Source: a marine actinobacterium PHSC20C1
Lineage (GTDB): Bacteria > Actinomycetota > Actinomycetes > Actinomycetales > Microbacteriaceae
Direction of reading: 5' to 3'
DNA: 55,390 nucleotides
NCBI GenBank assembly: GCA_000153145.1
Contig: CH672415.1
Span: 2,716,798 to 2,772,187, forward strand
Numbering within the stretch: position 1 is the first letter of the stretch; each line of letters begins with the position of its first letter. The translations under genes were made by a program, and so were the position numbers. Positions 5,217 to 18,915 of this stretch are shown piece after piece. A model generated the notes under the pieces. The model had not been told where the DNA came from, made no database searches, and worked only from the letters and a program-made list of their open reading frames with translations.

Positions 5217-6443
5217 TCAGTTGCCACCCTCAGCGATCTGCTTGCGATACGGCAGCAGTGCAGCTTTCATGCCAACACCAAGAACGCCGACAAGACGATC
5301 GTCGCGGTAGTAACCCACGGCAACCTGATCCGCAAGATCTCCCTCAAGGATGCGGATGTCGTCATCCGACACCAAACCCAACAGCCCATAAGCCTGCAGC
5401 TTGATCTCAAATTGATTCGACCAGAACGATGGCATCGGAGCGAACGGTTTCGCCACAACGTCGTCGAACGAACCGTCATCGGCCAAGTGCGCGGCCAGAA
5501 CGGCCCCAGCACGTTTGCCGGTGTCAGTGGGAATGTTCCAATGCTCAATACGGCGCGGAACATCATCGAACATCGGGTTCGGGAAGCGAGCAATATCGCC
5601 GACCACGTAGACATCATCGCGGGCCCTACCATCGGCAGTCACCGCACGCATCGCGTTATCGGCGAGCACACCATCGCTCAGGTCGAGCCCTGAGCCCTCA
5701 AGCCACTCGATGTTGCAGTCCGAGCCAACCGACTCAATCACCACATCTGCCTCAATCACGCGGCCATCACTCAACTCAACAGACTCGACCGAAGCCCCGC
5801 CGTTGATGGCAGCAACAGTCACGCCAGAGAAAATTTCCACGCCCTCAGCGTTGAGACGTCGGCGCATTTCTTTAGCAACCAGATCACCCAACGGACGGAT
5901 CATCGGCTCAACACTCGGAGTCACAATCGTGACCGAGCAACCAAGTTTGCTCGCCGTCGCACTCAGCTCGCAGCCCAAGAAGCCCGAACCGACAACAACA
6001 ACCCGCGCACCCACAGTGAGCTCCGCGCGCAACGCCATCGCGTCATCCAGCGAACGAACAACGTGACGGCCAGCAATAGGCGCGAAGTCCAGGCGGCGCG
6101 CACGCAGACCCGTCGCGATAACGAGCGCACGCCACTCCTGCACGTTGCCGTCATCCGTCGTCAGTGTGCGAGCAGCAAGATCGACCGCGGATGCCCGCAC
6201 CCCGAGCATCCACTCAACATCACCCATCTCGGCTCGCGACGGAAACGCCACAGCCTCGTGGGTCACGTCAGTGGCCAACACCTCCTTAGAGAGAGGCGGA
6301 CGGTTATAGGGCGCATGGAGTTCGTCACCCACTACGCGGATAGCACCGGTGTAGCCCGAACGGCGAAGAGACTCCGCCGCCCGCAGCCCACCCATCGCCG
6401 CACCGACAATGACGACAGGTGCGGCGGGGTTGGCCTCAGACAC
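5217..6443 (-). CDS. FAD-dependent ferredoxin reductase
   Basis: NAD(P)H-dependent flavoprotein of the putidaredoxin/rhodocoxin reductase type, which passes electrons to the small ferredoxin encoded just upstream and so to an oxygenase. Seen: N-terminal FAD dinucleotide fold VVIVGAAMGGLRAAESLRR, YNRPPLSKE, a second dinucleotide fold VVVVGSGFLGCELSA for NAD(P)H, and DVYVVGDIARFPN near the C-terminal FAD site. I chose the GTG at 6443 (408 residues) because it shares one base with the ferredoxin stop codon (TAGTG) and puts the Rossmann motif close to the N-terminus. The longer frame from 6476 adds only out-of-family residues. The likely electron acceptor is the P450 at 10643, which has the same predicted operator. 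Confidence 0.9.
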   Translation of the reverse strand: MSEANPAAPVVIVGAAMGGLRAAESLRRSGYTGAIRVVGDELHAPYNRPPLSKEVLATDVTHEAVAFPSRAEMGDVEWMLGVRASAVDLAARTLTTDDGNVQEWRALVIATGLRARRLDFAPIAGRHVVRSLDDAMALRAELTVGARVVVVGSGFLGCELSATASKLGCSVTIVTPSVEPMIRPLGDLVAKEMRRRLNAEGVEIFSGVTVAAINGGASVESVELSDGRVIEADVVIESVGSDCNIEWLEGSGLDLSDGVLADNAMRAVTADGRARDDVYVVGDIARFPNPMFDDVPRRIEHWNIPTDTGKRAGAVLAAHLADDGSFDDVVAKPFAPMPSFWSNQFEIKLQAYGLLGLVSDDDIRILEGDLADQVAVGYYRDDRLVGVLGVGMKAALLPYRKQIAEGGN

Positions 6444-6634
6444 TATTCGACGATTCGAATGGCCTGCATCGGGCACACGTCTACAGCGGCTTCAATGTTG
6501 TCGCGCTCAGAGTCTGGCGCTTCAGCCACATACTCAAGTTTGTCGTCGTCGTTGAGCTTGAAGTTGTCGGGTGCCTCGAACACGCACTGCCCATAGTGCT
6601 GGCACTGGTTCATGTCGACTTCGATTTTGATCAT
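6443..6634 (-). CDS. Ferredoxin, [3Fe-4S] P450-type
   Basis: A 63-residue electron carrier. The cluster ligands are C11 and C17 in CQHYGQC and C54 in DVCPMQAI. The position that would hold the fourth cysteine of a [4Fe-4S] ferredoxin is occupied by other residues, with His13 nearby. This is the pattern of the short actinobacterial ferredoxins that serve cytochromes P450. It is followed by its reductase with a one-base overlap and preceded by the FAH-family gene with two bases between, so it is made with the meta-cleavage enzymes. Electron transfer to the P450 at 10643 is inferred from shared regulation and from the absence of another oxygenase in the locus. Confidence 0.9.
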   Translation of the reverse strand: MIKIEVDMNQCQHYGQCVFEAPDNFKLNDDDKLEYVAEAPDSERDNIEAAVDVCPMQAIRIVE

Positions 6635-6636
6635 CG

Positions 6637-7509
6637 TTATTCCTCAACTCTCGACGGGTAGAGATCCTTAGAAGGAGTTCGAATACCTCGGAACTCCCAG
6701 TCGCCACCCATTGCGGTCGACATTACCTCTTCACTCTGGGTCGGCTGTGCACCCACGTCGGTGCGGATCGGAGTCGGCCCGGTAACAATGCGGTTTGTGA
6801 GCTTTCCGAGCCCCTCAACTTCGACCTCGACGACATCGCCAGGCTGCACCGGACGAGAGAACGCCGGCGTACCCGAGAACAGCATGTCGCCCGGGCTCAA
6901 GGTAATCGTTCGAGCGATATCGGCGACAAGGTAGTTCATGTCCCACTCCATGTTGTCGGTGTTGTCGTCTTGCTTGACCTCACCGTTCACAATGGTGCGC
7001 AACTGCTTGCCACGGAAATCCCAGTCAGTAACGAGACCGGGGCCGACGGGGGCGAGCGTGTCGCTGCCTTTGACGCGCAGCATTGATCCGGCATCCGTGT
7101 CTCGGAAATCGTGCAGCCCGTAGTCGTTTCCGATCGAATAGCCAGCAATGTAATCGCTAGCCTCCTCGGGAGAAACGTTGCGGCAGGTGCGGCCGATCAC
7201 GATGACGATTTCGCCTTCGAAGTTCAACCACTTGCAGCCCTCGGGGCGCACAACATCACCCTTGTGGGTGTTGAGGGCGGTAACCGGCTTCTGAAAGTAA
7301 GTCGGAGCCGACGGCAGCTTGGTCATGAATTCTTCCGTGCGACTTGCGTAGTTCAAGTGCACGGCAATGATCTTGCTCGGTTCGGTCGGCGGCAAATGGA
7401 TAGCGTCGTCGACACCAACCTCGCGGCCATCACCTGCGACGAGAGTGTCGCCGTGGCGAGTTACCTGCGTCGGGTATCCATCAAGAAGTACTCTGCGGAG
7501 TTCAGTCAC
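6637..7509 (-). CDS. Fumarylacetoacetate hydrolase-family protein, HpaG-like
   Basis: FAH-fold metal-dependent enzyme, probably the isomerase or decarboxylase that acts on the open-ring acid made by HpaD and HpaE. Seen: NFEGEIVIVIGR with metal-binding E98/E100, GYSIGNDYGLHDFRD with D119, and KGSDTLAPVGP, all characteristic of this fold. E. coli HpaG carries two such domains. This protein (290 residues) has one, so it should do only one of the two HpaG reactions unless it is promiscuous. I chose GTG at 7509, which overlaps the hpaD stop by 8 bases. An ATG at 7524 is possible but has its purine tract too close. About 35 residues after the fold are extra. Confidence 0.85.
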   Translation of the reverse strand: MTELRRVLLDGYPTQVTRHGDTLVAGDGREVGVDDAIHLPPTEPSKIIAVHLNYASRTEEFMTKLPSAPTYFQKPVTALNTHKGDVVRPEGCKWLNFEGEIVIVIGRTCRNVSPEEASDYIAGYSIGNDYGLHDFRDTDAGSMLRVKGSDTLAPVGPGLVTDWDFRGKQLRTIVNGEVKQDDNTDNMEWDMNYLVADIARTITLSPGDMLFSGTPAFSRPVQPGDVVEVEVEGLGKLTNRIVTGPTPIRTDVGAQPTQSEEVMSTAMGGDWEFRGIRTPSKDLYPSRVEE

Positions 7510-8413
7510 GAGAGAGAACCACATCCTTTGCTGCCGGGAAGCCACCTTCTGGCTTCGGGAACCATACGTGCACCTGACCGGTGCCGATCGAATTTTCGTA
7601 CTCGCTGTACATCACGCCAGGAGCGGTGCATTCGTCTTCACCAATTGCTCCAGCGGTCATCAGCCAGTGACCAAACATGGCCTCAGGGCGAACCTTGTGG
7701 AAGGCAGGCATCGTCTCCAACACCTTCGCGTGGTTGCCTTCCTTGAACCAGTCAAGGCGCTCGTAGTCTGCCTCTCGGGCAGCATCAGAGAAGATGTGCG
7801 CCGGGTCGGCCATCTCGTGCTTGCGAAGATCGCGAAGCTTGAAGAAGGTGTGCGACAACGCACCTGAAGCCAGCAGGATGACGCGGCGATCACTCTTGGC
7901 AATAGCTTCGCCAATCGCACGCCCCGCGCGCAAGAAATCTTCATCAGTGGCGGTCTGACAGATCGAGACGCTCACCCACTTCTTGCCTGGCAGGCCCTTA
8001 CCGAGGTAGTCCCACAGGTTGATCGTGGCGTACATGATCGGCAAGTGTTCGTCATCGATCGGGGTGATCCAGGTGCCGTTCTTTTCGGCCTGCTCCCCCA
8101 TGAGCTTCGCGAGCTCAGGGTCACCCTGGAAGTCGTACGGAACGCCGCTCATCCCCCGCGGCAGCTCCTCCGAGGTGAACTTGCCGTGGCGGCGCTCGTG
8201 CGCGGTAACGACGAATTCAACCGTGGTTGCCCAGTGGCTGTCGAGTACGACAACAGTGTCGTAATCGTCATTCTCGAAGTAGTCCTTGCGGAGTCGTTCG
8301 AGTCCATCTACGAGCGTTGAATCTTTGCCTTCGTTGAGTTCCATACGGATCTCTTTTGGCAACATGATCGTGGGCACGTGAGCGATTAGCCCAACACCAA
8401 CAACTTCTCCCAT
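7502..8413 (-). CDS. hpaD: Extradiol dioxygenase, homoprotocatechuate 2,3-dioxygenase type (LigB superfamily)
   Basis: Ring-cleaving dioxygenase of 303 residues. By comparison with my memory of E. coli HpaD, the matching landmarks are HVPTI near the N-terminus, VVLDSHW (iron-site His region), SEELP, LASGALSHTF (active-site Ser-His) and the C-terminal GTGQVHVWFP. This makes a type III (LigB-like), Fe(II)-dependent enzyme cleaving 3,4-dihydroxyphenylacetate next to the catechol hydroxyls the best guess. The open frame runs upstream to 8566, but the ATG at 8413 is two bases after the hpaE stop, has GGAAGG in front, and starts the family-like sequence MGEVVGVGLIAHVP. A related 2-aminophenol dioxygenase is the main alternative. 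Confidence 0.85.
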   Translation of the reverse strand: MGEVVGVGLIAHVPTIMLPKEIRMELNEGKDSTLVDGLERLRKDYFENDDYDTVVVLDSHWATTVEFVVTAHERRHGKFTSEELPRGMSGVPYDFQGDPELAKLMGEQAEKNGTWITPIDDEHLPIMYATINLWDYLGKGLPGKKWVSVSICQTATDEDFLRAGRAIGEAIAKSDRRVILLASGALSHTFFKLRDLRKHEMADPAHIFSDAAREADYERLDWFKEGNHAKVLETMPAFHKVRPEAMFGHWLMTAGAIGEDECTAPGVMYSEYENSIGTGQVHVWFPKPEGGFPAAKDVVLSRD

Positions 8414-8415
8414 GA

Positions 8416-9879
8416 CTATTCCTTCCATCCGTTCGGCGAAACCACCGTGTTCTTTACATCTGCGTAGAAATCGAACGACCAGGTGCCGCCCTCGCGACCA
8501 ACACCTGACTTCTTTGAGCCACCGAATGGTGCTCGCAAGTCGCGCACGAAGAAGCAGTTGACCCAAATTGTGCCGGCCACTAGTTGCTTAGCGATCGCAT
8601 CAGCGTGGTCGCGGTTTCCAGATACGAGGATCGCGGCCAGACCGAATTCGGTGCCGTTTGCCATCGCGACGACTTCGTCGTCTGTGCTGAACGTTTGCAT
8701 CGTCAGTACCGGTCCGAAAACTTCCTGGGTGACAATCTCGCTGCCGACCTCGGGGTCTTTCACGAGCGTGGGAGCAAAGTAGAGTCCGCCGAGTTCAGCG
8801 TTCGGTGATCCACCGACAACGATGTTCGCGCCGCCATCTTTTGCACGGTCAACAAACCCCTTGATGCGTTCGAAGTGAACACGGTGAACCTGCGGGCCAA
8901 TATCAGTTTCGATATCTCGAGGGTCACCCTGACGCAGGGTCGCAACCTTCGCTTTGAATGCTTCGGCAAAGGCATCCGCAATGTTTTCGTGGACGAGGAT
9001 GCGTGTGCCAGAGAGGCACACCTGCCCGGCGTTGTCGTACTGTTCGACCGCGAGAGTTGCTGCCAGCTCGAGGTCGGCGTCTTCCATAACGATGCATGGG
9101 CTCTTGCCGCCGAGCTCGAAGCTGCACGGGGTGAGGTTGTCTGCTGCTGCGCGGGCAATCGACTTGGCCGTTGGGACCGAGCCGGTAAACGAGATGCGGC
9201 TGAGATCGGGGTGGGCGACGAGTGAGGCGCCCGCTTCTTTGCCGTAGCCCTGAACAACATTGAACACACCGGCCGGAAGGCCAGCTTCGGCAGTGATGTC
9301 GGCGAGGAGCGACGCGGTGAGCGGCGTCCACTCGGCCGGCTTCAGCACGACGGTGTCGCCGGCGGCGAGCGCCGGGGCTATCTTCCAGGTGGCGAGCATG
9401 AGCGGCGCGTTCCAGGGGGTGATGAGGGCGGCGACGCCGGAGGGATCCCACGAGACGTGGTTGTTGTGGCCGCGAGTTTCAAAGTCCGGATGTCCGAGCT
9501 CGTTTACGAGGTAGTCGGCGAAGAATCGGAAGTTGTGGGCCACTCGCGGCATGACGCCGCGCAGGTGGCTGCGGAGGAGCGCACCGTTGTCCATCGTTTC
9601 GACGTTGGCGAGGTCGCTCACGCGTTCTTCGACGAGATCGGCGATCTTGTGCAGGATTGCGGCACGGTCCTGGGGGCTTGTGGCGGCCCATCCGGGGAAG
9701 GCCGCTCGAGCTGCGGCAACGGCGAGGTCGATCTCTCGTTGGCCACCGCGGGCGATTTCGCCAAGGTTGCTGCCATCGATGGGCGACGTGTTGGTGAAGG
9801 TCTCGTCGGAGGCTACGCGCTCTCCGTTGATGAAATGCCGGGTATCGACGGTTACCCCGGCTACTTGAACGTTGGTCAT
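8416..9879 (-). CDS. hpaE: 5-carboxymethyl-2-hydroxymuconate semialdehyde dehydrogenase-like ALDH
   Basis: NAD-dependent aldehyde dehydrogenase, 487 residues, the full usual length. Catalytic residues are N157 (LITPWNAP), E255 (FELGGKSP) and C288 (GQVCLSGTR), and the C-terminal APFGGSKKSGVGREGG is intact. Being directly before an HpaD-type ring-cleavage gene and an HpaG-like gene points to oxidation of the semialdehyde released by ring cleavage. The close relative 2-aminomuconate semialdehyde dehydrogenase cannot be excluded by eye. It is the first gene of the operon hpaE-hpaD-FAH-ferredoxin-reductase(-amidase). A predicted promoter (9933-9961) and operator (9912-9929) lie just upstream. Confidence 0.88.
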   Translation of the reverse strand: MTNVQVAGVTVDTRHFINGERVASDETFTNTSPIDGSNLGEIARGGQREIDLAVAAARAAFPGWAATSPQDRAAILHKIADLVEERVSDLANVETMDNGALLRSHLRGVMPRVAHNFRFFADYLVNELGHPDFETRGHNNHVSWDPSGVAALITPWNAPLMLATWKIAPALAAGDTVVLKPAEWTPLTASLLADITAEAGLPAGVFNVVQGYGKEAGASLVAHPDLSRISFTGSVPTAKSIARAAADNLTPCSFELGGKSPCIVMEDADLELAATLAVEQYDNAGQVCLSGTRILVHENIADAFAEAFKAKVATLRQGDPRDIETDIGPQVHRVHFERIKGFVDRAKDGGANIVVGGSPNAELGGLYFAPTLVKDPEVGSEIVTQEVFGPVLTMQTFSTDDEVVAMANGTEFGLAAILVSGNRDHADAIAKQLVAGTIWVNCFFVRDLRAPFGGSKKSGVGREGGTWSFDFYADVKNTVVSPNGWKE

Positions 9880-9911: not shown

Positions 9912-9929
9912 TCATTCGGATGCTAATGA
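9912..9929. promoter_or_regulatory. Operator site 1 of 5, upstream of hpaE
   Basis: TCATTCG-GATG-CTAATGA, lying within a longer perfect 9-bp inverted repeat TAAGTCATT...AATGACTTA at 9908-9916 and 9925-9933. It lies 33 bases before the hpaE start and touches the predicted -10 box, where a bound repressor would block transcription. It aligns with four further sites at 10608, 14459, 17298 and 17370. Confidence 0.7.
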
Positions 9930-9932
9930 CTT

Positions 9933-10001: not shown

Positions 10002-10502
10002 CTAGTTTTTTGGCTCGACGCCAGCGGTGATCAAGCGCAGCATCTCTGCGAGTTCTTCGCGCTTCGAGGGGTCGACAGGCCCCGTGACAGCCTGCTCTTG
10101 GACGTTGAAGGCTGGAAAGAGTTCGACCATGAGTTCGCGGCCGTTGTCTGTCAGCTTCACAACAACAAGGCGACCATCGGTGTCGCTGCGTTCGCGAGTG
10201 AGCCAGCCGCGACGTTCGAGCGTCGACAGAACCCCGGTGAGAGTGGCTTTCGAAAATCCGCCTTCGAGCGCGATCTGACGTGTCTCGATGGGCTCCCAGA
10301 TCCACGTAACCCAGAGAACAACAAACGCCGTCCACGAGAGATTGTGCTCAGACAACACCGTGCGCTCAAAGTGGTTGCGCACAGCATTGGCTGCACGGAA
10401 CAGGTTGGAGGCTACAGCCATCGCAGAGTAATCGAGCGGCAGCCCGCCAACGCGTGCTTGTACTTGACGTTCAGTTTGAGTCAGTGTGTGTGGTCCGGCC
10501 AC
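10002..10502 (-). CDS. MarR-family transcriptional regulator, HpaR-like
   Basis: Winged-helix DNA-binding protein of 166 residues. The core runs from LFRAANAVRNHFE through the recognition region TRQIALEGGFSKATLTGVLSTLERRGWLTRERSDTDGR, in which the DxR wing (SDTDGR) is clear. It then has a C-terminal dimerisation helix. MarR proteins bind dyad sites of roughly this size and usually release DNA on binding a phenolic ligand. The gene sits behind the hpaE operon and is divergent from the P450 unit. It is the only regulator in the locus, so it is the best candidate to bind the five shared 18-bp sites. GTG start at 10502 with AGGGG 7 bases upstream. It could also be an activator or have ligands other than homoprotocatechuate. 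Confidence 0.85.
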   Translation of the reverse strand: MAGPHTLTQTERQVQARVGGLPLDYSAMAVASNLFRAANAVRNHFERTVLSEHNLSWTAFVVLWVTWIWEPIETRQIALEGGFSKATLTGVLSTLERRGWLTRERSDTDGRLVVVKLTDNGRELMVELFPAFNVQEQAVTGPVDPSKREELAEMLRLITAGVEPKN

Positions 10503-10607: not shown

Positions 10608-10625
10608 TTGTTTGTATCCAAACAA
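10608..10625. promoter_or_regulatory. Operator site 2 of 5, upstream of the P450 gene
   Basis: TTGTTTG-TATC-CAAACAA, a perfect 7-4-7 inverted repeat and the most symmetric of the five sites. It ends 6 bases before the P450 ribosome-binding site (GGAGG, 10632-10636) and lies in the region shared with the divergent MarR gene, so it could serve both. Confidence 0.72.
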
Positions 10626-10642: not shown

Positions 10643-11896
10643 TTGACTTCAACGGCGAACGTCACCCTGGCAGACCTAGATCTTTTCGAGAACGGCACAC
10701 CGTGGCACGTTTTCGACAAACTTCGAACAGATGCACCCGTGCACTGGTCAGAAGAGCCAGCCCCCAACCACGGCTTCTGGTCCCTCACTCGGTACCACGA
10801 CATCGTGTCTGTACTGCGAGACACTGAGACGTTCTCGAGCGAGCGTGGCACAGTCAACCTCGAAGAACTCGACGCAGATCAAATCGAGGCACGCAAGTCG
10901 ATGCTCGAAACCGACGGCGTGCGACACCGGGCGCTTCGCCGCCTCATGCAGGGTGAATTCACCCCCAAGGCCGTCGCCGGATATGAGACCTTCCTCCGTG
11001 GTCTCACCGCGAGCACCCTTGATGCGGCATTCGCGAACAAGGAGTTTGAATTCGTCGATCAGGTTGCGGCCGACTTCCCCATCCGTGTGCTCGCCAAGAT
11101 GCTTGATGTCCCTGACACTGACATTTATAAGCTCATTGACTGGGGCAACCGGATGATCGGAAACGACGATCCCGAACACGCCGATGTTCTGGCGAGCTCC
11201 GCCGAGAGCGAAGAGTTTCGGCTCTTGCCCTTCCGCTCCCCCGCTGCCCGCGAAGTATTCGAATATGGCAACGACCTAGCGAACCAGCGTCGCGGCAAAG
11301 ACGGCACTGACCTTGTGTCTCGCCTGGTCAATCAAACGCCGATGGATGGAGAGGCGCTCAGCGAGCGCGACTTCAACAGTTATTTCTTGCTGCTTGTCGT
11401 CGCCGGCAACGAAACGACCCGCCACACGATCACTCACTCCATGAACTACCTCATGGACAATCCAGACCAGATGGCTCTGTTGCAAGAAAAGCCTGAGCTA
11501 ATCCCGTGGGCTGTTGAAGAGTTCCTGCGCATGGCAAGCCCCGTGTATCACTTCCGCCGCACTGCGACGAAAGACACCGAAATTAATGGTCAAGCGATCA
11601 AAGAAGGTCAGAAGGTTGTCACGTGGTTCGCCGCAGGCAACCGTGACCCCGAAGTCTTCGAAGACCCCTACAAGATGGATGTCACCCGCAACCCGAACGA
11701 GCACATGGCGTTCGGCCGCGGTGGCCCGCACATGTGTCTCGGAAACTCTCTTGCTCGCCTAGAGATCCGTATCATGTTCGAGAACCTGTTGCCCCGGATC
11801 TCCGGCATGACGAAGCTCAGTGAGCCAGATCGTCTGCGCAGCAATTTCGTCAACGGAATCAAACGACTCCCGGTACGCGTCGAATTAGCGAAGTAG
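10643..11896 (+). CDS. Cytochrome P450
   Basis: Soluble class I haem monooxygenase, 417 residues. Seen: I-helix oxygen-binding AGNETTR (254-260), the E-x-x-R pair in EEFLR (293-296), and the haem-binding loop FGRGGPHMCLG with thiolate Cys at about 365. The fold matches bacterial P450s of the CYP124/125/142 or terpene/alkyl-oxidising groups, so the substrate is not settled. I chose the TTG at 10643 because GGAGG sits 6 bases upstream and the predicted operator would otherwise lie inside the gene. The ATG at 10598 has no ribosome-binding site. Electrons probably come from the ferredoxin and reductase at 5.2-6.6 kb. The decarboxylase gene follows after 12 bases. Confidence 0.92.
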   Translation: MTSTANVTLADLDLFENGTPWHVFDKLRTDAPVHWSEEPAPNHGFWSLTRYHDIVSVLRDTETFSSERGTVNLEELDADQIEARKSMLETDGVRHRALRRLMQGEFTPKAVAGYETFLRGLTASTLDAAFANKEFEFVDQVAADFPIRVLAKMLDVPDTDIYKLIDWGNRMIGNDDPEHADVLASSAESEEFRLLPFRSPAAREVFEYGNDLANQRRGKDGTDLVSRLVNQTPMDGEALSERDFNSYFLLLVVAGNETTRHTITHSMNYLMDNPDQMALLQEKPELIPWAVEEFLRMASPVYHFRRTATKDTEINGQAIKEGQKVVTWFAAGNRDPEVFEDPYKMDVTRNPNEHMAFGRGGPHMCLGNSLARLEIRIMFENLLPRISGMTKLSEPDRLRSNFVNGIKRLPVRVELAK

Positions 11897-11908: not shown

Positions 11909-13279
11909 ATGAGCGAGGTACGCCCCCAAGGTCGAGCCCATGCAGTGTGGGGCGATGAAACTGAAGTAGTACAACTCGCCCTCGACTGGACCGCGAAGCG
12001 GATGGTTCGCGAGACCGATCCGTTGTCAACAGCTCGGCCCGCCGCCGAGCTGAAGGCAGCGGTCGGCGAAGCAATCCGCCCGGAAGGAATCGGTGGCGCA
12101 GAAGCGCTCCGCATTTTTGACGAGGTGCTTGAGCCAGCAACGCGAGCCCAAGACGATCCGCTGAACTTGGCGTACATCGCCGCAGCGCCAACACGGGCTG
12201 CTGTCGCGTTCGATCTCGTAACGAGCGCTGCCAACATCTTTGGTGGGCTATGGGAATCGGGCGCTGGAGCGATCTTTGCCGAGAACCAGGCACTCCAGTG
12301 GATTATCGGGCTGCTCGATTGGCCAGACACCGCCGGTGGAGCCTTCGTCTCTGGGGGCACCTCTGGCAACCTCTCCGCTCTCATGACAGCGCGCGAAACC
12401 GCCAAGACACGTCGCGGCGGTCGCCCGGCCGGCGGCTGGCAGCTGGCCTGCACCACCAATGCGCACTCGTCGATCCAGTCGGCAGCGAAAGCGCTCGACG
12501 TTGACGTCGTCGATGTACCGATCGATGACCGCGGGCACATGACCGGCGCTGCCCTGCGAGCCATTCTTGAACAGTCACCCAACGTGTTCGCTGTCGTGGC
12601 ATCCGCGGGAACGACCAATGAGGGGCTCGTGGACGATCTGGCGGACATTGCCGATGTCTGCGAAGAGTTTGGTGTGTGGATGCACGTCGATGGCGCCTAC
12701 GGCGGTGCGGGGCTCGCGGCCCCGAGCATCCGCCACGTGTTTGATGGCATTGAACGTGCCGACAGCTTTATCGTCGACCCGCACAAGTGGCTGTTTGCCC
12801 CCTACGACTGCTGTGCGCTCGTGTATCGCGAGCCAGAACTTGCGCGAGCAGTTCATTCTCAGCACGCCAGCTACCTCGACGCCATTGATCGCAACGAGTG
12901 GAACCCGAGCGAACTCGCCTTGCACTTGTCCCGACGCGTGCGGGGACTGCCGCTGTGGTTCAGCCTTGCCACCCACGGCACCGACAAATATCGGGATGCG
13001 ATCGAAAGTTCCGTCACGACGGCACGCGAAGTTGCCGAGAGAATTCGGTCTAGCGAATTCTTAGAACTCGTGCGCGAGCCAGAGCTCTCGGTGCTGTTGT
13101 TCGTGCGCACTGGCTGGACAGCAGAGCAGTACTCCGCGTGGTCTAAGCAAGCTGCTCACGACGGTGTGATCCTCTGTGTGCCGACAACTTGGCGCGGCCA
13201 GAGTGTGCTGCGTCTCGCCTTCGTCAACCCTGATACTGAATCGGCTGAGGTGATGACAGCAATCGAAACGCTGCGCTAG
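11909..13279 (+). CDS. Group II PLP-dependent decarboxylase (aromatic amino acid decarboxylase family)
   Basis: Fold-type I PLP enzyme of 456 residues. The internal aldimine lysine is K293 in SFIVDPHKWLFAPYDC. The cofactor-stacking and phosphate-binding parts are VSGGTSGNLSAL (148-159), TNAHSSIQ (173-180) and MHVDGAYGG (259-267). The family contains aromatic amino acid, glutamate and diaminobutyrate decarboxylases as well as plant-type aldehyde synthases. The segment SYLDAIDRNEWNPSELALHL, which should hold the flexible catalytic loop, is short. By eye I find no tyrosine there equivalent to the loop Tyr of aromatic decarboxylases. It is co-transcribed with the P450, so it probably feeds or drains the same pathway. 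The substrate is unknown. Confidence 0.82.
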   Translation: MSEVRPQGRAHAVWGDETEVVQLALDWTAKRMVRETDPLSTARPAAELKAAVGEAIRPEGIGGAEALRIFDEVLEPATRAQDDPLNLAYIAAAPTRAAVAFDLVTSAANIFGGLWESGAGAIFAENQALQWIIGLLDWPDTAGGAFVSGGTSGNLSALMTARETAKTRRGGRPAGGWQLACTTNAHSSIQSAAKALDVDVVDVPIDDRGHMTGAALRAILEQSPNVFAVVASAGTTNEGLVDDLADIADVCEEFGVWMHVDGAYGGAGLAAPSIRHVFDGIERADSFIVDPHKWLFAPYDCCALVYREPELARAVHSQHASYLDAIDRNEWNPSELALHLSRRVRGLPLWFSLATHGTDKYRDAIESSVTTAREVAERIRSSEFLELVREPELSVLLFVRTGWTAEQYSAWSKQAAHDGVILCVPTTWRGQSVLRLAFVNPDTESAEVMTAIETLR

Positions 13280-13346
13280 GCACGGTCTGCGGTAGCTTTG
13301 CCCCACGGCGCAGTGTGGCCGACCAGTGCACGAAAGGCGTGACGAC

Positions 13347-13682
13347 ATGAACGCGACAGTTTCTTTGACCGAATTAGCGGAAACAGAATTAGCGAGTGCT
13401 GTCGCGTCGAATAATGGACGCAGCGCCGTGACAGTACGTGGCGGGCGAGACTCGCAACTACGTCAGACCGTGATGGCCCTGCGTGCCGGCGAGGGCTTGG
13501 ATGAGCACTCAAGCCCCGGCGAGGCGACCCTCCAGGTGCTCGTCGGGCGCGTCACACTTCGTTCGGGCGATCAATCGTGGGCCGGCGTTGCCGGAGATCT
13601 CCTCCCGATTCCAGATACCGTTCATGCCCTTGATGCGCTCGAAGACTCAGTAATCCTGCTTACGGTAGCGAAGGCGCACTAA
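13347..13682 (+). CDS. Small cupin-domain protein
   Basis: A 111-residue single-domain cupin. MALRAGEGLDEHSSPGEATLQVLVGRVTLRSG gives the first cupin motif (G-x5-H-x3-4-E-x6-G), and DLLPIPDTVHALDALEDSVILL gives the second, with a His. Such proteins may bind a metal and act as small isomerases or decarboxylases, or may sense ligands. The ATG at 13347 has AAAGG upstream; the frame extends upstream to 13326 without a better start. It follows the decarboxylase after 67 bases on the same strand and overlaps the end of the convergent amidotransferase gene by 4 bases. Its role in the locus is unknown. Confidence 0.65.
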   Translation: MNATVSLTELAETELASAVASNNGRSAVTVRGGRDSQLRQTVMALRAGEGLDEHSSPGEATLQVLVGRVTLRSGDQSWAGVAGDLLPIPDTVHALDALEDSVILLTVAKAH

Positions 13683-14386
13683 GCGAGTTTTGCTACGCGG
13701 TCGAGGAATGCATCAACAAGATCGGCAGTGCGCTGACCGGCTACGCCCTCTTCTGCACGAGTCTGAGCAAGCATGACTTCGGCGCTCTGGCCATCGGCAA
13801 CAACTTCATCAATGCCGCCCTGGTCGAGCCAGCCTGTCAAGATCGCGGTGTTTAGTTCAGGATGGAATTGCACGGCAAGACTGCGGCCATATACGAATGC
13901 TTGAGGCGCCACAGGGTTACGGGCAATCTCAACTGCACCCTCGGGCATCGTCCATTGGTCGTAGTGAAATTGGAACCATGGCCCATTCGAGACCAACGAA
14001 GTGTCATCGCTGTGGATTGCTGTCCAGCCGATCTCGGACTTTACGCCGCGAGCGACGGTGCCGCCGAGAGCTCTGGCGATCAACTGACCACCAAAACAAA
14101 TACCGAGCACCGGGATGTCCGCTTCGATGGTTTTTCGAACCCACTCAAGTTCTGGAGCTAACCAACGGCCGATGCACGCGTCATCCCACGCACCCCACGG
14201 CGCACCCATCGGGATCACGAGGTCGTACTGGGAGGCATCCGGAAATTCGAAGTCGACATTGGGGGTCTCAAAATTTTCTTCGGTGACGACCATGATCTCG
14301 TCGATCTCGAAGCCCCGTTCGCGCAGGCGATCTCCCACTGGTCCACTCGCGGTGACGTGATCGTGCTGCACCAAAAGTGCTCTCAT
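13679..14386 (-). CDS. Class I glutamine amidotransferase-like hydrolase
   Basis: Stand-alone GATase1-fold protein, 235 residues. The nucleophile C97 (LGICFGGQ) and the His-Glu pair H175/E177 (VQFHPEL) are present, so the glutaminase-type triad is complete. No synthase domain is attached. Free-standing members next to a glutamine-synthetase-like ligase are known from aniline-type amine degradation (AtdA2/TdnT), where they hydrolyse gamma-glutamyl amides. The divergent gene at 14496 is exactly such a ligase. A GMP-synthase-like or general stress amidotransferase role is the alternative. On the minus strand GAAAGG lies 7 bases before the ATG. The divergent region holds operator site 3. Confidence 0.8.
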   Translation of the reverse strand: MRALLVQHDHVTASGPVGDRLRERGFEIDEIMVVTEENFETPNVDFEFPDASQYDLVIPMGAPWGAWDDACIGRWLAPELEWVRKTIEADIPVLGICFGGQLIARALGGTVARGVKSEIGWTAIHSDDTSLVSNGPWFQFHYDQWTMPEGAVEIARNPVAPQAFVYGRSLAVQFHPELNTAILTGWLDQGGIDEVVADGQSAEVMLAQTRAEEGVAGQRTADLVDAFLDRVAKLA

Positions 14387-14419
14387 CTGTATACCTTTCA
14401 GGTAAATTCTCGCGAGGAG

Positions 14420-14450: not shown

Positions 14451-14458
14451 CTCACTAA

Positions 14459-14476
14459 TCGTTCAGTGCCGAACGA
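14459..14476. promoter_or_regulatory. Operator site 3 of 5, between the amidotransferase and ligase genes
   Basis: TCGTTCA-GTGC-CGAACGA. It lies within an 8-bp perfect inverted repeat AATCGTTC...GAACGATT with a 6-base spacer. The outer arms match site 5 closely, while the GATA centre is replaced by GTGC. It sits 19 bases before the ligase start and could repress both divergent genes. Confidence 0.65.
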
Positions 14477-14495
14477 TTTATTTTTCGGAGGAAGA

Positions 14496-15842
14496 ATGAC
14501 TCTCGACATAGCAGCGCTTCAAGCAGACTTGCAGGCAAAAGGGATCGATGTTCTGCGCCTGATTTTCCCGGATGTGCTGGGGATTACCCGCTCAAAAGAT
14601 CTCCTCGTCAGCCAATTGCACCGAGCCAAGTCTCCGCTGTTTTGCCAAGGCGTTTGGGTGACAACCACTGGCGGCGATGTGCTTGACGGAAACGACATCA
14701 TGTCCTCCGGCCTTCCCGACCTCCTCACCCAAATTGATCCCGACACCCTCACGATCATGCCGTGGGAACCCGGTGTGGCGCTCGTTATCGGTGACGCTTT
14801 CAACCCTGACCACAGCGTGAGCGAAATCGCGCCGCGGTCGGTACTGCAAAACGTGATCGCCGAATACGCCGCCCTCGGCCTCACACCGACAGTCGGCCCC
14901 GAACTCGAGTTCTACATCGCCAACTACGACGAAGAGAACGGTTGGAGCCGCAGCCTCAGCCGCACCGGCCGCGTTTACACGACCGGCGAGCATGTAGATC
15001 CGGGTGGGGAGTTCCTGAACCTCATGCGCATGCTCGACGGCATGGACATCGGCGTCTTCGCCGGAAACCACGAATTCAGCCCCTCACAGTACGAAATCAA
15101 CCTGTGGCACAGCGAAGCACTGGATGCTGCCGACCGAACGTTCCTGTTTAAGACGGCCGTGCGCGACATCGTCGCACGTACAGGCAAGCACGCGCTCTTC
15201 GTCGGCAAGCCTTGGGATGACGAAGGCGGCAGCGGATTCCACCTCCACTTTTCGGTCGTCGACAAAGACGGAAACAACATCATGTCGGATGGCGGCTCTG
15301 GGCTCTCAGAGGTTGCCAACCACATGATCGGCGGAATCCTCGCCCACGCCGGCGCGCTGGCCGCACTCTCAAACCCAACCGTGAACGCCTACAAACGCCT
15401 CGGGCCCGACACTCTGGCTCCGTACCGCGCAAATTGGGGCCACGATAACCGCAGCGCGATGCTGCGGGTACCGCCCGAGCGCGGCGCGGGCACGCGATTG
15501 GAAGTCCGTCTCGGCGACCCAGCCGCCAACCCGTACCTTCTGATTGCATCCACGCTCGCCGCCGGACTCGATGGCATCAAGCGCAAGCTCACCGCGCCGG
15601 CAGCCGTCGAGGGTTGGGCCTACGAAGACGCGTCAGCCCCCATCCTTCCGATGACCCTCACCGCCGCTCTTGACGCCTTAGACGCCGACACAGCGATGCG
15701 AGAGACCATGGGCAGCACGGTCATCGACGTGTTTAGCGTGCTCAAGCGGGACGAAGTGAGACGCTACGAAGACTCAGTCGCAGACAACAACACTCGGGAT
15801 ATTAGCCAATGGGAGATCGACGAGTACTTCGCCGACTACTAA
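14496..15842 (+). CDS. Glutamine-synthetase-like gamma-glutamyl-amine ligase
   Basis: ATP-dependent glutamate ligase of the glutamine synthetase fold, 448 residues. The N-terminal beta-grasp part reads VLRLIFPDVLGITRSKDL. The ATP/glutamate site is GPELEFYI, GNHEFSPSQYEINL, GSGFHLHFS, NRSAMLRVPPERGAGTRLEVRLGDPAANPYL. The FPDxxGxxRSKxL start and shorter length are typical of actinobacterial GS-like proteins that glutamylate amines (PuuA, GlnA3, GlnA4, IpuC, AtdA1 types) rather than ammonia. The ATG at 14496 follows GGAGG directly. The divergent amidotransferase and the permease with the same operator support a role in amine catabolism. The amine is unknown: polyamine, ethanolamine and aromatic amines all fit. 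Confidence 0.85.
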   Translation: MTLDIAALQADLQAKGIDVLRLIFPDVLGITRSKDLLVSQLHRAKSPLFCQGVWVTTTGGDVLDGNDIMSSGLPDLLTQIDPDTLTIMPWEPGVALVIGDAFNPDHSVSEIAPRSVLQNVIAEYAALGLTPTVGPELEFYIANYDEENGWSRSLSRTGRVYTTGEHVDPGGEFLNLMRMLDGMDIGVFAGNHEFSPSQYEINLWHSEALDAADRTFLFKTAVRDIVARTGKHALFVGKPWDDEGGSGFHLHFSVVDKDGNNIMSDGGSGLSEVANHMIGGILAHAGALAALSNPTVNAYKRLGPDTLAPYRANWGHDNRSAMLRVPPERGAGTRLEVRLGDPAANPYLLIASTLAAGLDGIKRKLTAPAAVEGWAYEDASAPILPMTLTAALDALDADTAMRETMGSTVIDVFSVLKRDEVRRYEDSVADNNTRDISQWEIDEYFADY

Positions 15843-15876
15843 ACACAATGTCAGCAGTCGAGGGCACACTGACTGC

Positions 15877-16461
15877 ATGAGAAATGTCGCCTTGTTCCAT
15901 TCAGTACTTGGCGCGCGGGCGGGTGTTCACGACGCCGCCGATCGTCTGCGCTCTGAGGGTCACGACGTCACCGTTGTCGATCAGTACGATGGTCGAATTT
16001 TCGACTCCTACGACGAAGCAATTGAGTTCGCTGAGGCCGTTGGCTATCCAGCACTCATGAGCATCGCCGCACAGGCGGTTGAACACCTGCCCGATGGTTT
16101 TATCGCGGGCGGGTTCTCGAACGGTGGTGGAATGGCCGAGTACGTGGCAACGCAAAGGGTTGTCTCGGGCGTACTCATGCTCTCCGGCGCGCTGGACTTG
16201 TCAATGCTCGGCGTCGAGACTTGGCCTGCTCAAGTCCCGGCCCAGATTCACTACGCGCTCGATGATCCTTTCCGGAGCCAGACCGAAATCGACGCGGTCG
16301 CGCAGCTGGTGCGCGCAGCTGGCGCAGTTGTCGAGGTGTTCGACTACCCGGGCGCGGGCCACCTGTTCACCGACAGCTCGCTGCCCGCGGAGTTCGACGC
16401 GGAATCCACTGAGTTGCTGTGGTCCCGCGTTCTCCCGTTCTGCGCTTCTCCCCCGGCCTAA
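15877..16461 (+). CDS. Dienelactone hydrolase-family alpha/beta hydrolase
   Basis: Small alpha/beta hydrolase of 194 residues. The nucleophile elbow is GGFSNGGG with S81, the acid is D129 or D130 (YALDDPF), and the His is H162 (GAGHLF). Classical dienelactone hydrolases use Cys at the nucleophile position, so this Ser version may act as an esterase or on another lactone. It starts 34 bases after the glutamine-synthetase-like gene and is probably co-transcribed under operator site 3. It might open a lactone or ester intermediate of the pathway. No substrate can be assigned. Confidence 0.75.
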   Translation: MRNVALFHSVLGARAGVHDAADRLRSEGHDVTVVDQYDGRIFDSYDEAIEFAEAVGYPALMSIAAQAVEHLPDGFIAGGFSNGGGMAEYVATQRVVSGVLMLSGALDLSMLGVETWPAQVPAQIHYALDDPFRSQTEIDAVAQLVRAAGAVVEVFDYPGAGHLFTDSSLPAEFDAESTELLWSRVLPFCASPPA

Positions 16462-16466
16462 TCCGG

Positions 16467-17276
16467 CTAGATTGCTTGCGAGCGGTCTTCTACGAGGTCG
16501 CCACCGTTGAAGGTGACACCAATTTCGCGGTAGTAGCCACCGAGGATTTCTTCGACGGGCAGGATCGAGTGCAGCTCATCCCACTGCGAGTCGCCTAGGT
16601 GGAGCTCGGCGTCGCCCTTCCAGGTCTCGCCAATCTCGACATCGGTGCCGCCCATGGTGATGAGCTGGTCGAGTGACATGCCAGCATCCTTGCTGATGGA
16701 CGGCATGAAACGGCTGTGCAGCATCTTGTGTCCGTTAACAAAACCGTTGCTCTCGGCAGGCTCGCGCAGTGTGACAACGGCGGAGGCGAGACGGTGGTCG
16801 TAGGCCGCGATGGTGGCACCAAGCTGGCCACCGTTCTCAAGCTTGGGAGTTGCCTTGCCTGCGTTGAACACACGCGTGACAGCAATGTTGCCGAGCTTCT
16901 TGGGGTACCCCTGGAACCAACCACGGCCAATCGCGAAGTCCTTGGTCACCCAGATGGCGACACAACGGCTGTACACGATGCCCTTGTGCGAGCAGCGCAC
17001 GACCATGAAGGCCTCTAGGTACTGGGAGCGCACAGGATCGAGCAGTTCTAGGCCACCGGTGCTGCACGACTGCCAGTCGGCCCACACGATGGCGACGGCA
17101 CCAGGCTGTTCAGGGGCGAGGTCAATATCGGGCGGAAGGATCGCACGTACGTTGGCTGGATCGGTCAGATACTCGACGGTGAGTAGCGTTCCCGAGTAGT
17201 ACCAGGGCATCTCAGGCACGAGCGAACTCGACCCTTGGGGAGTGAGCGGAGGAAGGAATCCTTTGAGTTCGGTCAT
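16467..17276 (-). CDS. Acetoacetate decarboxylase-family protein
   Basis: A 269-residue protein of the ADC fold. The Schiff-base lysine region is kept: GWFQGYPKKLGN with K126/K127, corresponding to the catalytic Lys pair of Clostridium acetoacetate decarboxylase. The surrounding order (MPWYYSGT, TVEYLTDPANVRAILPPDIDL, YLEAFMVVRC) also fits. Family members include decarboxylases and aldolase-dehydratases acting on 2-oxo acids. It converges on the hydrolase gene with only 5 bases between and has its own upstream region with operator site 4. In this locus it may act on a ring-cleavage product, filling a step for which no HpaH/HpaI genes are seen. That is inference. Confidence 0.8.
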   Translation of the reverse strand: MTELKGFLPPLTPQGSSSLVPEMPWYYSGTLLTVEYLTDPANVRAILPPDIDLAPEQPGAVAIVWADWQSCSTGGLELLDPVRSQYLEAFMVVRCSHKGIVYSRCVAIWVTKDFAIGRGWFQGYPKKLGNIAVTRVFNAGKATPKLENGGQLGATIAAYDHRLASAVVTLREPAESNGFVNGHKMLHSRFMPSISKDAGMSLDQLITMGGTDVEIGETWKGDAELHLGDSQWDELHSILPVEEILGGYYREIGVTFNGGDLVEDRSQAI

Positions 17277-17297
17277 GCGCCAGAGTGTAGCCCAAAA

Positions 17298-17315
17298 CGG
17301 TTCGTATCCAAATGA
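17298..17315. promoter_or_regulatory. Operator site 4 of 5, upstream of the acetoacetate decarboxylase-like gene
   Basis: On the minus strand TCATTTG-GATA-CGAACCG. The left arm and centre match the consensus well and the last two bases deviate. It ends 22 bases before the start of the gene at 17276 and 54 bases from site 5. Confidence 0.6.
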
Positions 17316-17329
17316 ATTTACCTAATCAC

Positions 17330-17335
17330 TTGACT
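17330..17335 (+). promoter_or_regulatory. Possible -35 box of the permease gene
   Basis: TTGACT is a good -35 match, upstream of operator site 5, but only a weak -10 (CATTGT, 17354-17359) is present at suitable distance. It is reported because it lies in the divergent region that carries two operator sites. Confidence 0.3.
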
Positions 17336-17369
17336 AAGTCGTCCTGTCTTCGCCATTGTTTAACCCAAC

Positions 17370-17387
17370 TCGTTCGGATACGGACGA
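17370..17387. promoter_or_regulatory. Operator site 5 of 5, upstream of the permease gene
   Basis: TCGTTCG-GATA-CGGACGA, a 7-4-7 dyad with one mismatch between arms. It lies 31 bases before the permease ATG and downstream of the possible -35 box. Confidence 0.68.
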
Positions 17388-17418
17388 ATTGATATAGAAC
17401 TCAACGAGGAGTTTCACC

Positions 17419-18915
17419 ATGGCGCTTGACCAAAAATCCCAAGAAAGCCCAGATCGGACCCTGCGCAAAGGGCGACTCGGCGTAATCGGAATCGTATTCT
17501 TCGTCGTGGCCGCAGCTGCGCCTCTGGTCGGAATGACCGGTGCAGTTCCCGTCGCAATCGTGCTCGGTAACGGAGCAGCAGCCCCCGGCGCCTACCTATT
17601 CGCTGGCATCGTCCTTCTCCTCTTCAGCGTCGGCTACGCCGCAATGAGCCAGCGTGTGACCAATACTGGAGCGTTCTTCGCCTACATCGGTCGCGGACTC
17701 GGGCGCAATGCCGGAATCGCTGCCTCGTTCGTTTCGGTACTTGCGTACCTCACGATTCAGCTCGCTATCTACGGATTCTTCGGCGGCGTCATGGCCGGCC
17801 AAGTTGGCCTCCTCCCCTGGTGGGGCTGGACACTCCTCGCGTGGCTCGTCGTTACCGCGCTCTCACTGCTTCGCGTCGACATCGGAGCCAAGCTTCTCGG
17901 TGTTTTGATGCTCGCAGAACTCACCGTTCTCGTGATTGCGGCGGTTGCAATCCTCATCGACGGCGGCCCCGAGGGACTCAACTGGGGTGCTTCTTTCTCG
18001 CCCGACCTGATTCTGGCCGGTGGCCTTGCTGGTTCCGCCGGAATCGCGTTCGCTTTCGCATTCGCCTCGTTCATCGGATTCGAAGCAACAGCAATCTACG
18101 GCGAAGAAAGCAAAGACCCGAAGCGCGCCGTACCGCGCGCAACGTACCTTGCAGTCGGCCTGATCACGGTGCTTTTCGCGTTCACCGCATTCGCACTCGT
18201 CACCGGCATGGGTGCTTCAAACGTCATCGAAGAAACGCTTGAGCGCTCTGCGGGCCTTGAAGACCCAGCCGCGGTGCTCTTCTCTCTCGCCAGCCAATAC
18301 GTTGGTCCGTGGCTCGCCACCATCATGAGCATCCTCGTACTCTCGAGCTTGTTCGCCGGACTGCTCGCATTCCAGAACGCTGCAAGCCGCTACCTCTTCG
18401 CCCTCGGCCGCGGTGGCGTGCTGGCGAGCTCAGTGGGAACCGTGAACGGTCGCGGAGCTCCCAGCCGCGCATCCATCATCGTGTCGATCATTACCGGCGC
18501 TGTTATGTTCCTGTTTGCCGTCTTCCAGCTCGACCCCATCAGCAACATGTTCTTCTGGTTCAGCGGTCTCGCGGTTGTCGCGATTGTGCTGATCGAAGCA
18601 CTCGTGTGCATCGCGATCATCCGGTTCTTCCTGCAGAACAAGGGTACCGAAAACGTTTTCGTCACGATGATCGCGCCGATCCTGGCATTCATCGGCCTCG
18701 TACTCGCCGAGTACCTGTTGATGTCACGATTCGGATTGCTCGCCGGTGAGCTTACCCTCACTGCGGGAGTCGACCCCACCGTGACCGCGTTCGGACTCAA
18801 CGCATTCGGTTGGTTCCTCGTGCTGTCACCATTCATCGTTCTGGTGATCGGCTACGTAGTTTCGCTGGTCCGTAAGAACGTCAACGAAGAACTACTGCAG
18901 GACGTAATTTCTTAA
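17419..18915 (+). CDS. APC-family amino acid/amine permease
   Basis: Cytoplasmic-membrane transporter of the amino acid-polyamine-organocation superfamily, 498 residues, about 12 hydrophobic segments. TM1 contains the unwound substrate motif (VVAAAAPLVGMTGAVPVAI), and FAFASFIGFEATAIYGEESKDPKRAVPRATY is the classic TM6-loop region of this family. GAGGAG lies 7 bases before the ATG. It shares the predicted operator with the P450, ligase and meta-cleavage genes, so it probably imports the pathway substrate (amino acid or amine). A strong terminator follows 15 bases after the stop. Which substrate it carries is not visible. Confidence 0.9.
   Translation: MALDQKSQESPDRTLRKGRLGVIGIVFFVVAAAAPLVGMTGAVPVAIVLGNGAAAPGAYLFAGIVLLLFSVGYAAMSQRVTNTGAFFAYIGRGLGRNAGIAASFVSVLAYLTIQLAIYGFFGGVMAGQVGLLPWWGWTLLAWLVVTALSLLRVDIGAKLLGVLMLAELTVLVIAAVAILIDGGPEGLNWGASFSPDLILAGGLAGSAGIAFAFAFASFIGFEATAIYGEESKDPKRAVPRATYLAVGLITVLFAFTAFALVTGMGASNVIEETLERSAGLEDPAAVLFSLASQYVGPWLATIMSILVLSSLFAGLLAFQNAASRYLFALGRGGVLASSVGTVNGRGAPSRASIIVSIITGAVMFLFAVFQLDPISNMFFWFSGLAVVAIVLIEALVCIAIIRFFLQNKGTENVFVTMIAPILAFIGLVLAEYLLMSRFGLLAGELTLTAGVDPTVTAFGLNAFGWFLVLSPFIVLVIGYVVSLVRKNVNEELLQDVIS

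Follow-up and report, generated by a model that had tools for sequence, protein, structure and literature searches.

In this study, we propose that a gene cluster of the marine actinobacterium PHSC20C1 (Microbacteriaceae) encodes a catabolic pathway for arylethylamines. The cluster lies at positions 5217-18915 of the window, the 55,390-nucleotide stretch of contig CH672415.1 (positions 2,716,798 to 2,772,187) that was analysed and that lies at the very end of a genome of 2.77 Mb, assembled as one contig and 99.99% complete. The genes, their families, their conserved linkage and a shared intergenic motif are observed. On this basis it is probable that the cluster degrades an arylethylamine, the likeliest being tyramine (or else dopamine or a related phenethylamine), that a gamma-glutamyl cap is kept on the amine throughout, and that the route joins the Puu route.

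The proposed pathway would begin with import of the amine by an APC-family permease, or with its formation from an amino acid by a group II pyridoxal phosphate (PLP) decarboxylase. A ligase of the glutamine synthetase (GS) fold would cap the amine with glutamate, giving gamma-glutamyl-tyramine, and a cytochrome P450 with its ferredoxin and reductase would hydroxylate the ring to gamma-glutamyl-dopamine. This catechol would be cleaved by a LigB-type extradiol dioxygenase, the semialdehyde would be oxidised by an HpaE-like dehydrogenase, and an enzyme of the FAA-hydrolase family would decarboxylate or isomerise the product, after which an enzyme of the acetoacetate decarboxylase (ADC) fold would hydrate it and carry out a retro-aldol cleavage to pyruvate and gamma-glutamyl-4-aminobutanal. 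A PuuC-type dehydrogenase would act on this aldehyde, and a PuuD-type hydrolase, or the stand-alone amidotransferase of the cluster, would finally yield glutamate and gamma-aminobutyrate (GABA), the latter leaving via GabT/GabD. The gamma-glutamyl group would serve as a protecting handle through ring cleavage. In the homoprotocatechuate route, a 4-substituted catechol with side chain R is converted into pyruvate and the aldehyde OHC-CH2-R, which is succinate semialdehyde if R is CH2COOH. With R being CH2CH2-NH-gamma-glutamyl, as in gamma-glutamyl-dopamine, the end aldehyde would therefore be gamma-glutamyl-4-aminobutanal, the substrate of PuuC.

Conserved linkage and a shared motif

The initial annotation had listed these genes from the DNA alone. 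All of them are present, with family matches in Pfam and NCBIfam searches of the window proteins, and the amidotransferase, for which a complete triad had been claimed, carries a cysteine motif (GICFG) and a His-Glu motif (HPE). Most cluster proteins match NCBIfam families clearly, yet under the curated cut-offs, and are thus relatives of known enzymes rather than identical enzymes.

A scan of GTDB genomes revealed at least 519 stretches encoding a relative of the LigB-type dioxygenase; our counts come from the best 80. Linkage was counted within about 10 kb in the 46 of these 80 loci that have full flanks (at least 20.3 kb), the 34 shorter loci being left out, with identity floors of 38% for the P450, the ligase, the ADC-fold enzyme, the amidotransferase and PuuD, 50% for the PuuC-type dehydrogenase and 60% for the decarboxylase. 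Having been found with the LigB profile, all 46 loci encode LigB, and all 46 also carry the HpaE-like, FAA-like and MarR genes. The ligase and the ADC-fold gene follow with 45 each, the P450 with 44, the APC permease with 41, the amidotransferase and the reductase with 38 each and the ferredoxin with 37. PuuD-type genes are present in 27, and the window-type decarboxylase and a PuuC-type dehydrogenase in nine each. The core gaps are confined to two loci, L128 without the P450 and L130 without the ligase, the P450 and the ADC-fold gene. The conserved unit is indeed the one first suggested, a predicted gamma-glutamyl-amine ligase with a P450 and extradiol (meta) cleavage. The hosts of the 80 loci include Microbacteriaceae, Nocardioides, Streptomyces, Glycomyces, Lentzea, Kineosporia, Ornithinimicrobium, Paractinoplanes and others. 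Owing to their common descent the loci do not give independent counts, though the order and orientation of the module genes differ between families.

Within the family, the LigB gene occurs in 23 of 199 sampled genomes, that of the window included; the nearest named relatives, among the matches listed, are Salinibacterium, with 95-96% LigB identity, and the window probably comes from a member of this genus. The other 22 neighbourhoods all share the run of dehydrogenase, LigB, FAA-like, ferredoxin and reductase genes, with a P450 in reach in 21 and the ligase in 18; of the four without a ligase, three (L039, L042, L047) lie on short contigs and the stretch of the fourth (L050) stops at the P450. 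Relatives with small genomes (1.3-1.8 Mb) retain the cluster. Four Streptomycetaceae clusters are located on plasmid records, two of them several Mb in size; no P450 was found in the 25 kb viewed of the Streptomyces lunaelactis plasmid cluster.

In a sample of 396 genomes of the phylum, LigB scores at least 540 bits in only three (that of the window and two others from its class), each of which carries a ligase of at least 667 bits within about 6 kb. A further 33 genomes have LigB at 310-438 bits, of which five neighbourhoods were viewed. Among the seven neighbourhoods thus chosen by LigB (two high- and five low-scoring), six contain the ligase, six the P450, five the ADC-fold gene, five the HpaE-like and four the FAA-like gene. 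All gaps fall in the five low-scoring ones, L162 lacking the ligase and L157 the P450. Together with the ligase tree described below, these neighbourhoods indicate that other classes also have a set of this kind, in a less complete form and with a different ligase branch.

The genes had also been placed under one operator family. In the window alone this claim is weak: the 12-bp core TTYGKATMCRAA, a pattern taken from the window itself, has three matches when one mismatch is allowed, a number that 6 of 100 shuffles attain as well. Across the relatives it is strong, with 107 sites in 401 gaps between module genes (57 kb, 80 loci; gaps below 40 or above 900 bp left out), where 20 mononucleotide shuffles yield 0.85 sites on average. 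Of the divergent gaps, 73 of 206 contain the motif, as do 19 of the 119 tandem gaps and none of the 76 convergent ones; it is present in 55 of the 80 loci. The gaps most often hit are APC/ADC-fold (26), P450/MarR (23), MarR/dehydrogenase (17) and PuuD/dehydrogenase (12); by the last of these, the PuuD-type genes share the motif with the ring-cleavage operon. We infer that the motif is the putative operator of the MarR-family regulator (10002-10502, minus strand; PF01047), whose best NCBIfam match is HpaR with 54.7 bits against a cut-off of 121. In the window, exact matches lie between the MarR and P450 genes (10611-10622) and between the ADC-fold and APC genes (17301-17312), the latter gap holding a second site with one mismatch (17373-17384). 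An operator-like palindrome upstream of the aldehyde dehydrogenase gene (9915-9926, TCATTCGGATGCTAATGA) has two mismatches to the core, and a palindrome before the ligase gene (14457-14478, AATCGTTC...GAACGATT), which has no match to the 12-bp pattern at up to two mismatches, is possibly a diverged operator.

Predicted enzymes of the proposed pathway

The ligase gene (plus strand) opens as a reading frame at GTG 14466, the ATG at 14496 that follows GGAGG being the likelier start, and then spans 14496-15842. Its product has the GS fold (PF00120, 312 bits). In an alignment with E. coli GlnA, the columns E129, E131, E212, E220, H269, R321, R339, R344, E357 and R359 are kept, which we take to be metal, ATP and glutamate residues. 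The ammonium-site columns differ, with Y179 replaced by Val, E327 by Leu and S53 by Asp, and Asp retained in the D50 column. Val at 179 and Leu at 327 recur in nearly all module ligases, together with a longer, different flap; PuuA, with Val and Tyr at columns 179 and 327, likewise lacks the GlnA residues Y179, E327 and S53. The apparent loss of the ammonium site is a hint rather than proof, since the D50 column varies across the clade and there are alignment gaps at the flap, around D50 and near 179. Against the PuuA model of NCBIfam the ligase reaches 238 bits (cut-off 650), which places it outside the PuuA equivalog. The initial annotation had named a grouping with ethanolamine or polyamine ligases as a counter-indication, and with the polyamine ligase PuuA no such grouping is seen: in the tree, the module ligases form a well-supported clade (33 rows, support 96/91, including the ligases of L160 and L161), apart from GlnA and from a group of PuuA and the puu-like ligases of this genus. 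The PuuA group itself is unsure because PuuA and a few others sit on long branches; the tree was built without AtdA1, IpuC, GlnA3 and GlnA4, and the short fragments of L110 and L156 were left out. In a PDB search, the NpaA1 structure 8wwu scores 198 bits, below eleven chains named glutamine synthetase. Judged from its sequence, the protein is predicted to be a gamma-glutamyl-amine ligase.

The stand-alone class I amidotransferase (13679-14386, minus strand; PF00117) is a predicted gamma-glutamyl-amide hydrolase, and its relatives conserve the cysteine motif in 55 of 56 and the HPE motif in 56 of 56 cases.

The P450 gene (10598-11896, plus strand; probable TTG start at 10643) encodes a protein whose closest PDB chain is CYP125MRCA (388 bits), judging from the name an ancestral reconstruction; no source description of CYP125MRCA was found in the open-access literature. 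Natural CYP124 and CYP125 structures trail at about 249 bits. The haem motif is found in 68 of 71 relatives. A steroid enzyme, as the CYP125-like match could imply, was set aside in view of the gene context. According to our prediction, the P450 forms the catechol while the amine is gamma-glutamylated, together with a single-cluster ferredoxin of 63 amino acids (6443-6634, minus strand; PF13370, PF13459) and a ferredoxin reductase (5217-6476, minus strand; PF07992 and PF14759).

The LigB-type protein (7502-8413, minus strand) is a class III extradiol dioxygenase by its fold (PF02900) and invariant residues. His13, His61, His189 and Glu274, presumably the two His, the Glu and the catalytic His of this class, are invariant across a 14-row alignment, and the surrounding motifs occur in 79, 84, 76 and 79 of 84 loci, respectively. 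It is HpaD-like, with 132 bits to TIGR02298 (cut-off 316) and 29% identity to E. coli HpaD. Downstream in the pathway, the HpaE-like semialdehyde dehydrogenase (8416-9879, minus strand; aldehyde dehydrogenase family) has HpaE as its best NCBIfam match, with 521.6 bits against a cut-off of 638, and shares 40% identity with E. coli HpaE and 37% with PuuC. The FAA-hydrolase-family protein (6637-7545, minus strand; PF01557), a predicted HpaG-C-like decarboxylase/isomerase, obtains 203.9 bits with the HpaG C-terminal model (cut-off 276) and more, 220 of 444, with a generic FAA-family model. A replacement of the dioxygenase itself gives good evidence that the step at this position is catechol cleavage. 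Thirteen genomes of the phylum sample have a ligase at 449-502 bits and no LigB at the cut-off; the two that were examined (L160, L161) carry a cassette of ligase, P450, FAA-like, ADC-fold, HpaE-like dehydrogenase and decarboxylase genes with a VOC-fold protein (PF00903), whose best NCBIfam match is the unrelated HpaD type TIGR02295 (89 and 91 bits, cut-off 321). One extradiol fold is thus replaced by another.

Searches with the E. coli proteins (tblastn) detected no homologue of HpaF, HpaH, HpaI or HpaB in the 84 related loci, and the annotated cluster genes of the window belong to other families than HpaF, HpaH and HpaI. The ADC-fold enzyme (16467-17276, minus strand) is a candidate for a combined hydratase-aldolase. 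Its closest PDB chains are 6eej and 4zbo, which we take to be Sbi00515, followed by MppR (4jm3), with the lysine motif G(Y/F/M)PK aligned. The motif is found in 61 of 63 relatives, in line with the Sbi00515/MppR type, and the match to the MppR model of NCBIfam stands at 176 bits (cut-off 380). Presumably its lysine is the active one and Sbi00515 and MppR handle pyruvate via a Schiff base; no text on Sbi00515 was found in the open-access literature. The genome of the window carries HpcH/HpaI-family genes elsewhere, so that an aldolase acting in trans is possible.

The window decarboxylase (11909-13279, plus strand), the predicted amine-former, has 2,4-diaminobutyrate (DABA) decarboxylase as its best NCBIfam match (169.9 bits, cut-off 900) and matches in the PDB 4obu, of generic name (141 bits), 2qma (DABA, 140 bits) and 7xin (3,4-dihydroxyphenylalanine or DOPA, 137 bits). 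A decarboxylase homologue of at least 30% identity lies near the cluster in 13 of the 46 full loci, namely the nine of window type, L070, L072 and L076 (a few kb past the reductase), and a remnant in L128; a Pseudonocardia cluster (L110) has the window type at 70%. In S. lunaelactis (L052), the best NCBIfam match of the decarboxylase is the tyrosine decarboxylase TIGR03811 (129 bits, cut-off 905), and its closest PDB structures are 5hsi, 6ebn and 7cwx, of which 5hsi and 7cwx are tyrosine decarboxylases from Lactobacillus brevis and Enterococcus faecalis. As the substrate, tyramine offers the simplest reading, because a single P450 hydroxylation yields the catechol; dopamine, phenethylamine or methoxylated amines may take its place. 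Beside a second PLP decarboxylase a few kb past the cluster, L037 (12022-14545) and L041 (17799-19899) have an adjoining gene, which in L037 matches agmatine deiminase and in L041 belongs to the same similarity group. The APC-family permease (17419-18915, plus strand) is a probable amine (or amino acid) importer with matches to amino acid and ethanolamine permeases of NCBIfam, all well under the cut-offs.

The proposed glutamyl cap and competing explanations

The presence of PuuD-, PuuC- and GabT-type genes in the clusters of relatives suggests that the ring is cleaved with the glutamyl group still attached and that this group comes off only at the stage of gamma-glutamyl-GABA. All 44 PuuD-type genes checked have the CRG cysteine motif (six as TICRG) and the HPE motif; two of the proteins scanned have PF07722, and three score 70-92 bits on the gamma-glutamyl-GABA hydrolase model. 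Among the 27 full loci with PuuD, L100 is near the floor at 38% and the other 26 reach at least 45%. The PuuC-type proteins of L052, L035 and L106 have PuuC as their best NCBIfam match, with 554, 534 and 504 bits, below the cut-off of 850, and that of L052 is 50.5% identical to E. coli PuuC. Strong PuuE matches were obtained in 5 of 84 loci, and the three scanned exceed the cut-off of the GabT model TIGR00700 (602-623 versus 507 bits). In both Nocardioides clusters scanned, a gene resembling succinate semialdehyde dehydrogenase (SSADH) lies beside GabT (521 and 523 bits, cut-off 646). In the congeners L173 and L175, and not in the third one checked (L174), a puu-like set of ligase, PuuD and dehydrogenase is found within about 7 kb of the APC gene. 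No PuuB homologue was detected in the 84 loci.

This distribution bears directly on the aniline-type model put forward at first, by analogy with AtdA1/AtdA2, in which the stand-alone amidotransferase would remove the glutamyl group no later than ring cleavage and the normal homoprotocatechuate pathway would take up a free catechol acid. The pairing of a ligase with a stand-alone amidotransferase is also found in atd/npa (PMC11335346), and the amidotransferase is present in 38 of the 46 full loci. Yet the analogy has no place for the PuuD, PuuC and GabT genes and is rejected on that ground; the 84 loci contain no HpaF, HpaH or HpaI homologue, the Hpa-like genes score below the Hpa cut-offs, and the amidotransferase is missing in 8 of the 46 loci, five of which have PuuD. 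We therefore consider the model unlikely. The same genes speak on the length of the side chain. Another arylalkylamine would fit the acceptance of beta-alanine by GABA transaminases, the end product from hydroxybenzylamine being beta-alanine, and the P450 might instead demethylate a methoxylated phenethylamine. Such substrates are a rather improbable choice, since a side chain of two carbons is indicated by the PuuC- and PuuD-type genes as well as by the tyrosine-type decarboxylase. The possibility that an intact amino acid (tyrosine or DOPA) is capped, gamma-glutamyl-tyrosine being ring-opened and gamma-glutamyl-glutamate semialdehyde being the end aldehyde, would suit the APC-type permease and the 33 of 46 full loci that have no decarboxylase homologue of at least 30% identity in reach. 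It is very unlikely in view of the window-type decarboxylase in 9 of the 46 loci, the tyrosine-decarboxylase-like gene of L052 and the GabT- and SSADH-like genes, all of which fit a decarboxylated amine.

Several observations weigh against an arylethylamine pathway with a retained cap. The window's own cluster has neither a PuuC- nor a PuuD-type gene; in its genome, a puu-like set lies at 2.04 Mb and the closest PuuC-type protein, with 45% identity, at 0.24 Mb. The PuuC and GabT argument rests on a minority, given the nine of 46 and five of 84 loci in which these genes occur. The PuuD-type scores stay far from the cut-off of 266 of the gamma-glutamyl-GABA hydrolase model, and the PuuD-type protein of L106 has no match at all at 1e-30. 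Likewise, every Hpa-like gene remains under its NCBIfam cut-off, outside the HpaD, HpaE and HpaG equivalogs, and the nearest solved relatives of the P450, CYP124 and CYP125, act on lipids or steroids. As to the amine, the window decarboxylase is not clearly aromatic-specific, and the 33 full loci mentioned above lack any homologue at the 30% level. A tyrosine-decarboxylase-like gene is intact in only one examined cluster, such sequence being split over frames in L153 (5192-7235) and a remnant in L128 (11823-12228); L128 also lacks the P450, and L153 the ring-cleavage genes.

Distant relatives add to this list. The set is less complete in distant classes (L156, L157, L162), and the ligases of L154, L155 and L157 form a separate clade outside the module clade. 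Genome G502 (L153) combines a ligase of 620 bits with a P450, an ADC-fold gene and the split tyrosine-decarboxylase-like stretch, and has no LigB at the cut-off anywhere in the genome; HpaE- and FAA-like genes are likewise missing from the 20 kb stretch, a composition for which decay is the sole explanation offered. The initial annotation had regarded P450 and hpa genes apart from the ligase and amidotransferase as evidence against its pathway. Nearly all 46 loci have LigB with both ligase and P450, and this part of its expectation is mostly borne out; single distant clusters are incomplete in the 20 kb fetched, as described for L162, L157 and L153.

Flanking genes, known systems and implications

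Two further genes of the cluster are poorly conserved. A small cupin-like protein (13344-13682, plus strand), without a Pfam or NCBIfam match, is encoded in only four of the 46 full loci, all Salinibacterium. A DLH-like hydrolase (15877-16461, plus strand) sits between the ligase and ADC-fold genes; the initial annotation counted it in the set, but it has no match among the 80 relatives scanned. It is ruled out as part of the pathway and perhaps represents a recent insertion. The stretch 3131-5161, downstream of the reductase gene, holds an aminotransferase gene and one of the nitrilase family (deaminated-glutathione-amidase-like). The pair was rejected as a core part, the nitrilase being linked in 9 of the 46 full loci. 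None of these nine has a PuuD-type gene in reach, and the nitrilase may replace PuuD in its clade, clade and content being confounded. Farther out, at 1340-2485 (about 1.1 kb), long reading frames low in GC at third codon positions have a non-coding look and may be non-coding DNA or a decayed gene. Beyond the APC gene, L180, L182 and L187 have a further GS-like ligase, an amidotransferase, an alcohol dehydrogenase and two aldehyde dehydrogenases, possibly a second amine pathway.

The cluster combines elements of several known systems. As in the Puu pathway of E. coli (PuuA-PuuB-PuuC-PuuD-PuuE), a glutamate cap would be followed by PuuC- and PuuD-type enzymes and sometimes a GABA transaminase; unlike there, the PuuB step would be taken over by the P450 and ring cleavage, and the ligase clade is apart from PuuA. 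The hpa pathway of E. coli shares HpaD-, HpaE- and HpaG-like enzymes and an HpaR-like MarR regulator, yet the matches are below the cut-offs, HpaF, HpaH, HpaI and HpaB are not found, and the cluster adds a ligase, a P450 and an ADC-fold enzyme, none of which lies beside the E. coli hpa genes in the stretch examined. The oxygenase of the Atd and Npa systems is a Rieske dioxygenase, in contrast to the P450 of the window cluster. AtdA1-A5 and NpaA1-A5, for aniline and 1-naphthylamine, similarly unite a GS-fold ligase, a stand-alone amidotransferase and an oxygenase, but their amine nitrogen sits on the ring and the available part of the source mentions no PuuC/PuuD arm (PMC11335346). Streptomyces GlnA4 and GlnA2/GlnA3, which serve ethanolamine and polyamine glutamylation, are likewise actinobacterial GS-like amine ligases, for which no aromatic ring chemistry is described in the part of the source available, and PauA7 of Pseudomonas is reported to glutamylate aromatic monoamines (PMC6529630). 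The Sbi00515/MppR branch of the acetoacetate decarboxylase superfamily comprises the closest solved sequences, with the lysine motif aligned; the enzyme of the present cluster differs in its catabolic setting, its predicted cleavage direction and its score below the MppR cut-off.

In summary, the chances seem evenly balanced that Actinomycetota harbour an undescribed, widespread arylethylamine pathway with a glutamate cap, in which a single ADC-fold enzyme acts as both hydratase and aldolase and which ends in gamma-glutamyl-GABA. No description of such a pathway was found in the open-access literature, subscription papers being outside the scope. All substrates and reactions are inferred, which applies most of all to the nature of the amine, to what the P450 does and to the ADC-fold step. 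If true, the pathway would explain a gene set that is present in nearly all 46 full-flank relatives from many actinobacterial families and carries mostly generic enzyme names, and it would provide substrates for three orphans together, namely the P450, the GS-like ligase and a branch of the acetoacetate decarboxylase superfamily. It would also suggest a purpose for the cap, which may block the amine from closing onto the ring-opened product, and would join aromatic amine and polyamine catabolism. Aurantimicrobium and Rhodoluna relatives are freshwater bacteria with small genomes; the pathway would show how these and other actinobacteria use biogenic amines such as tyramine.

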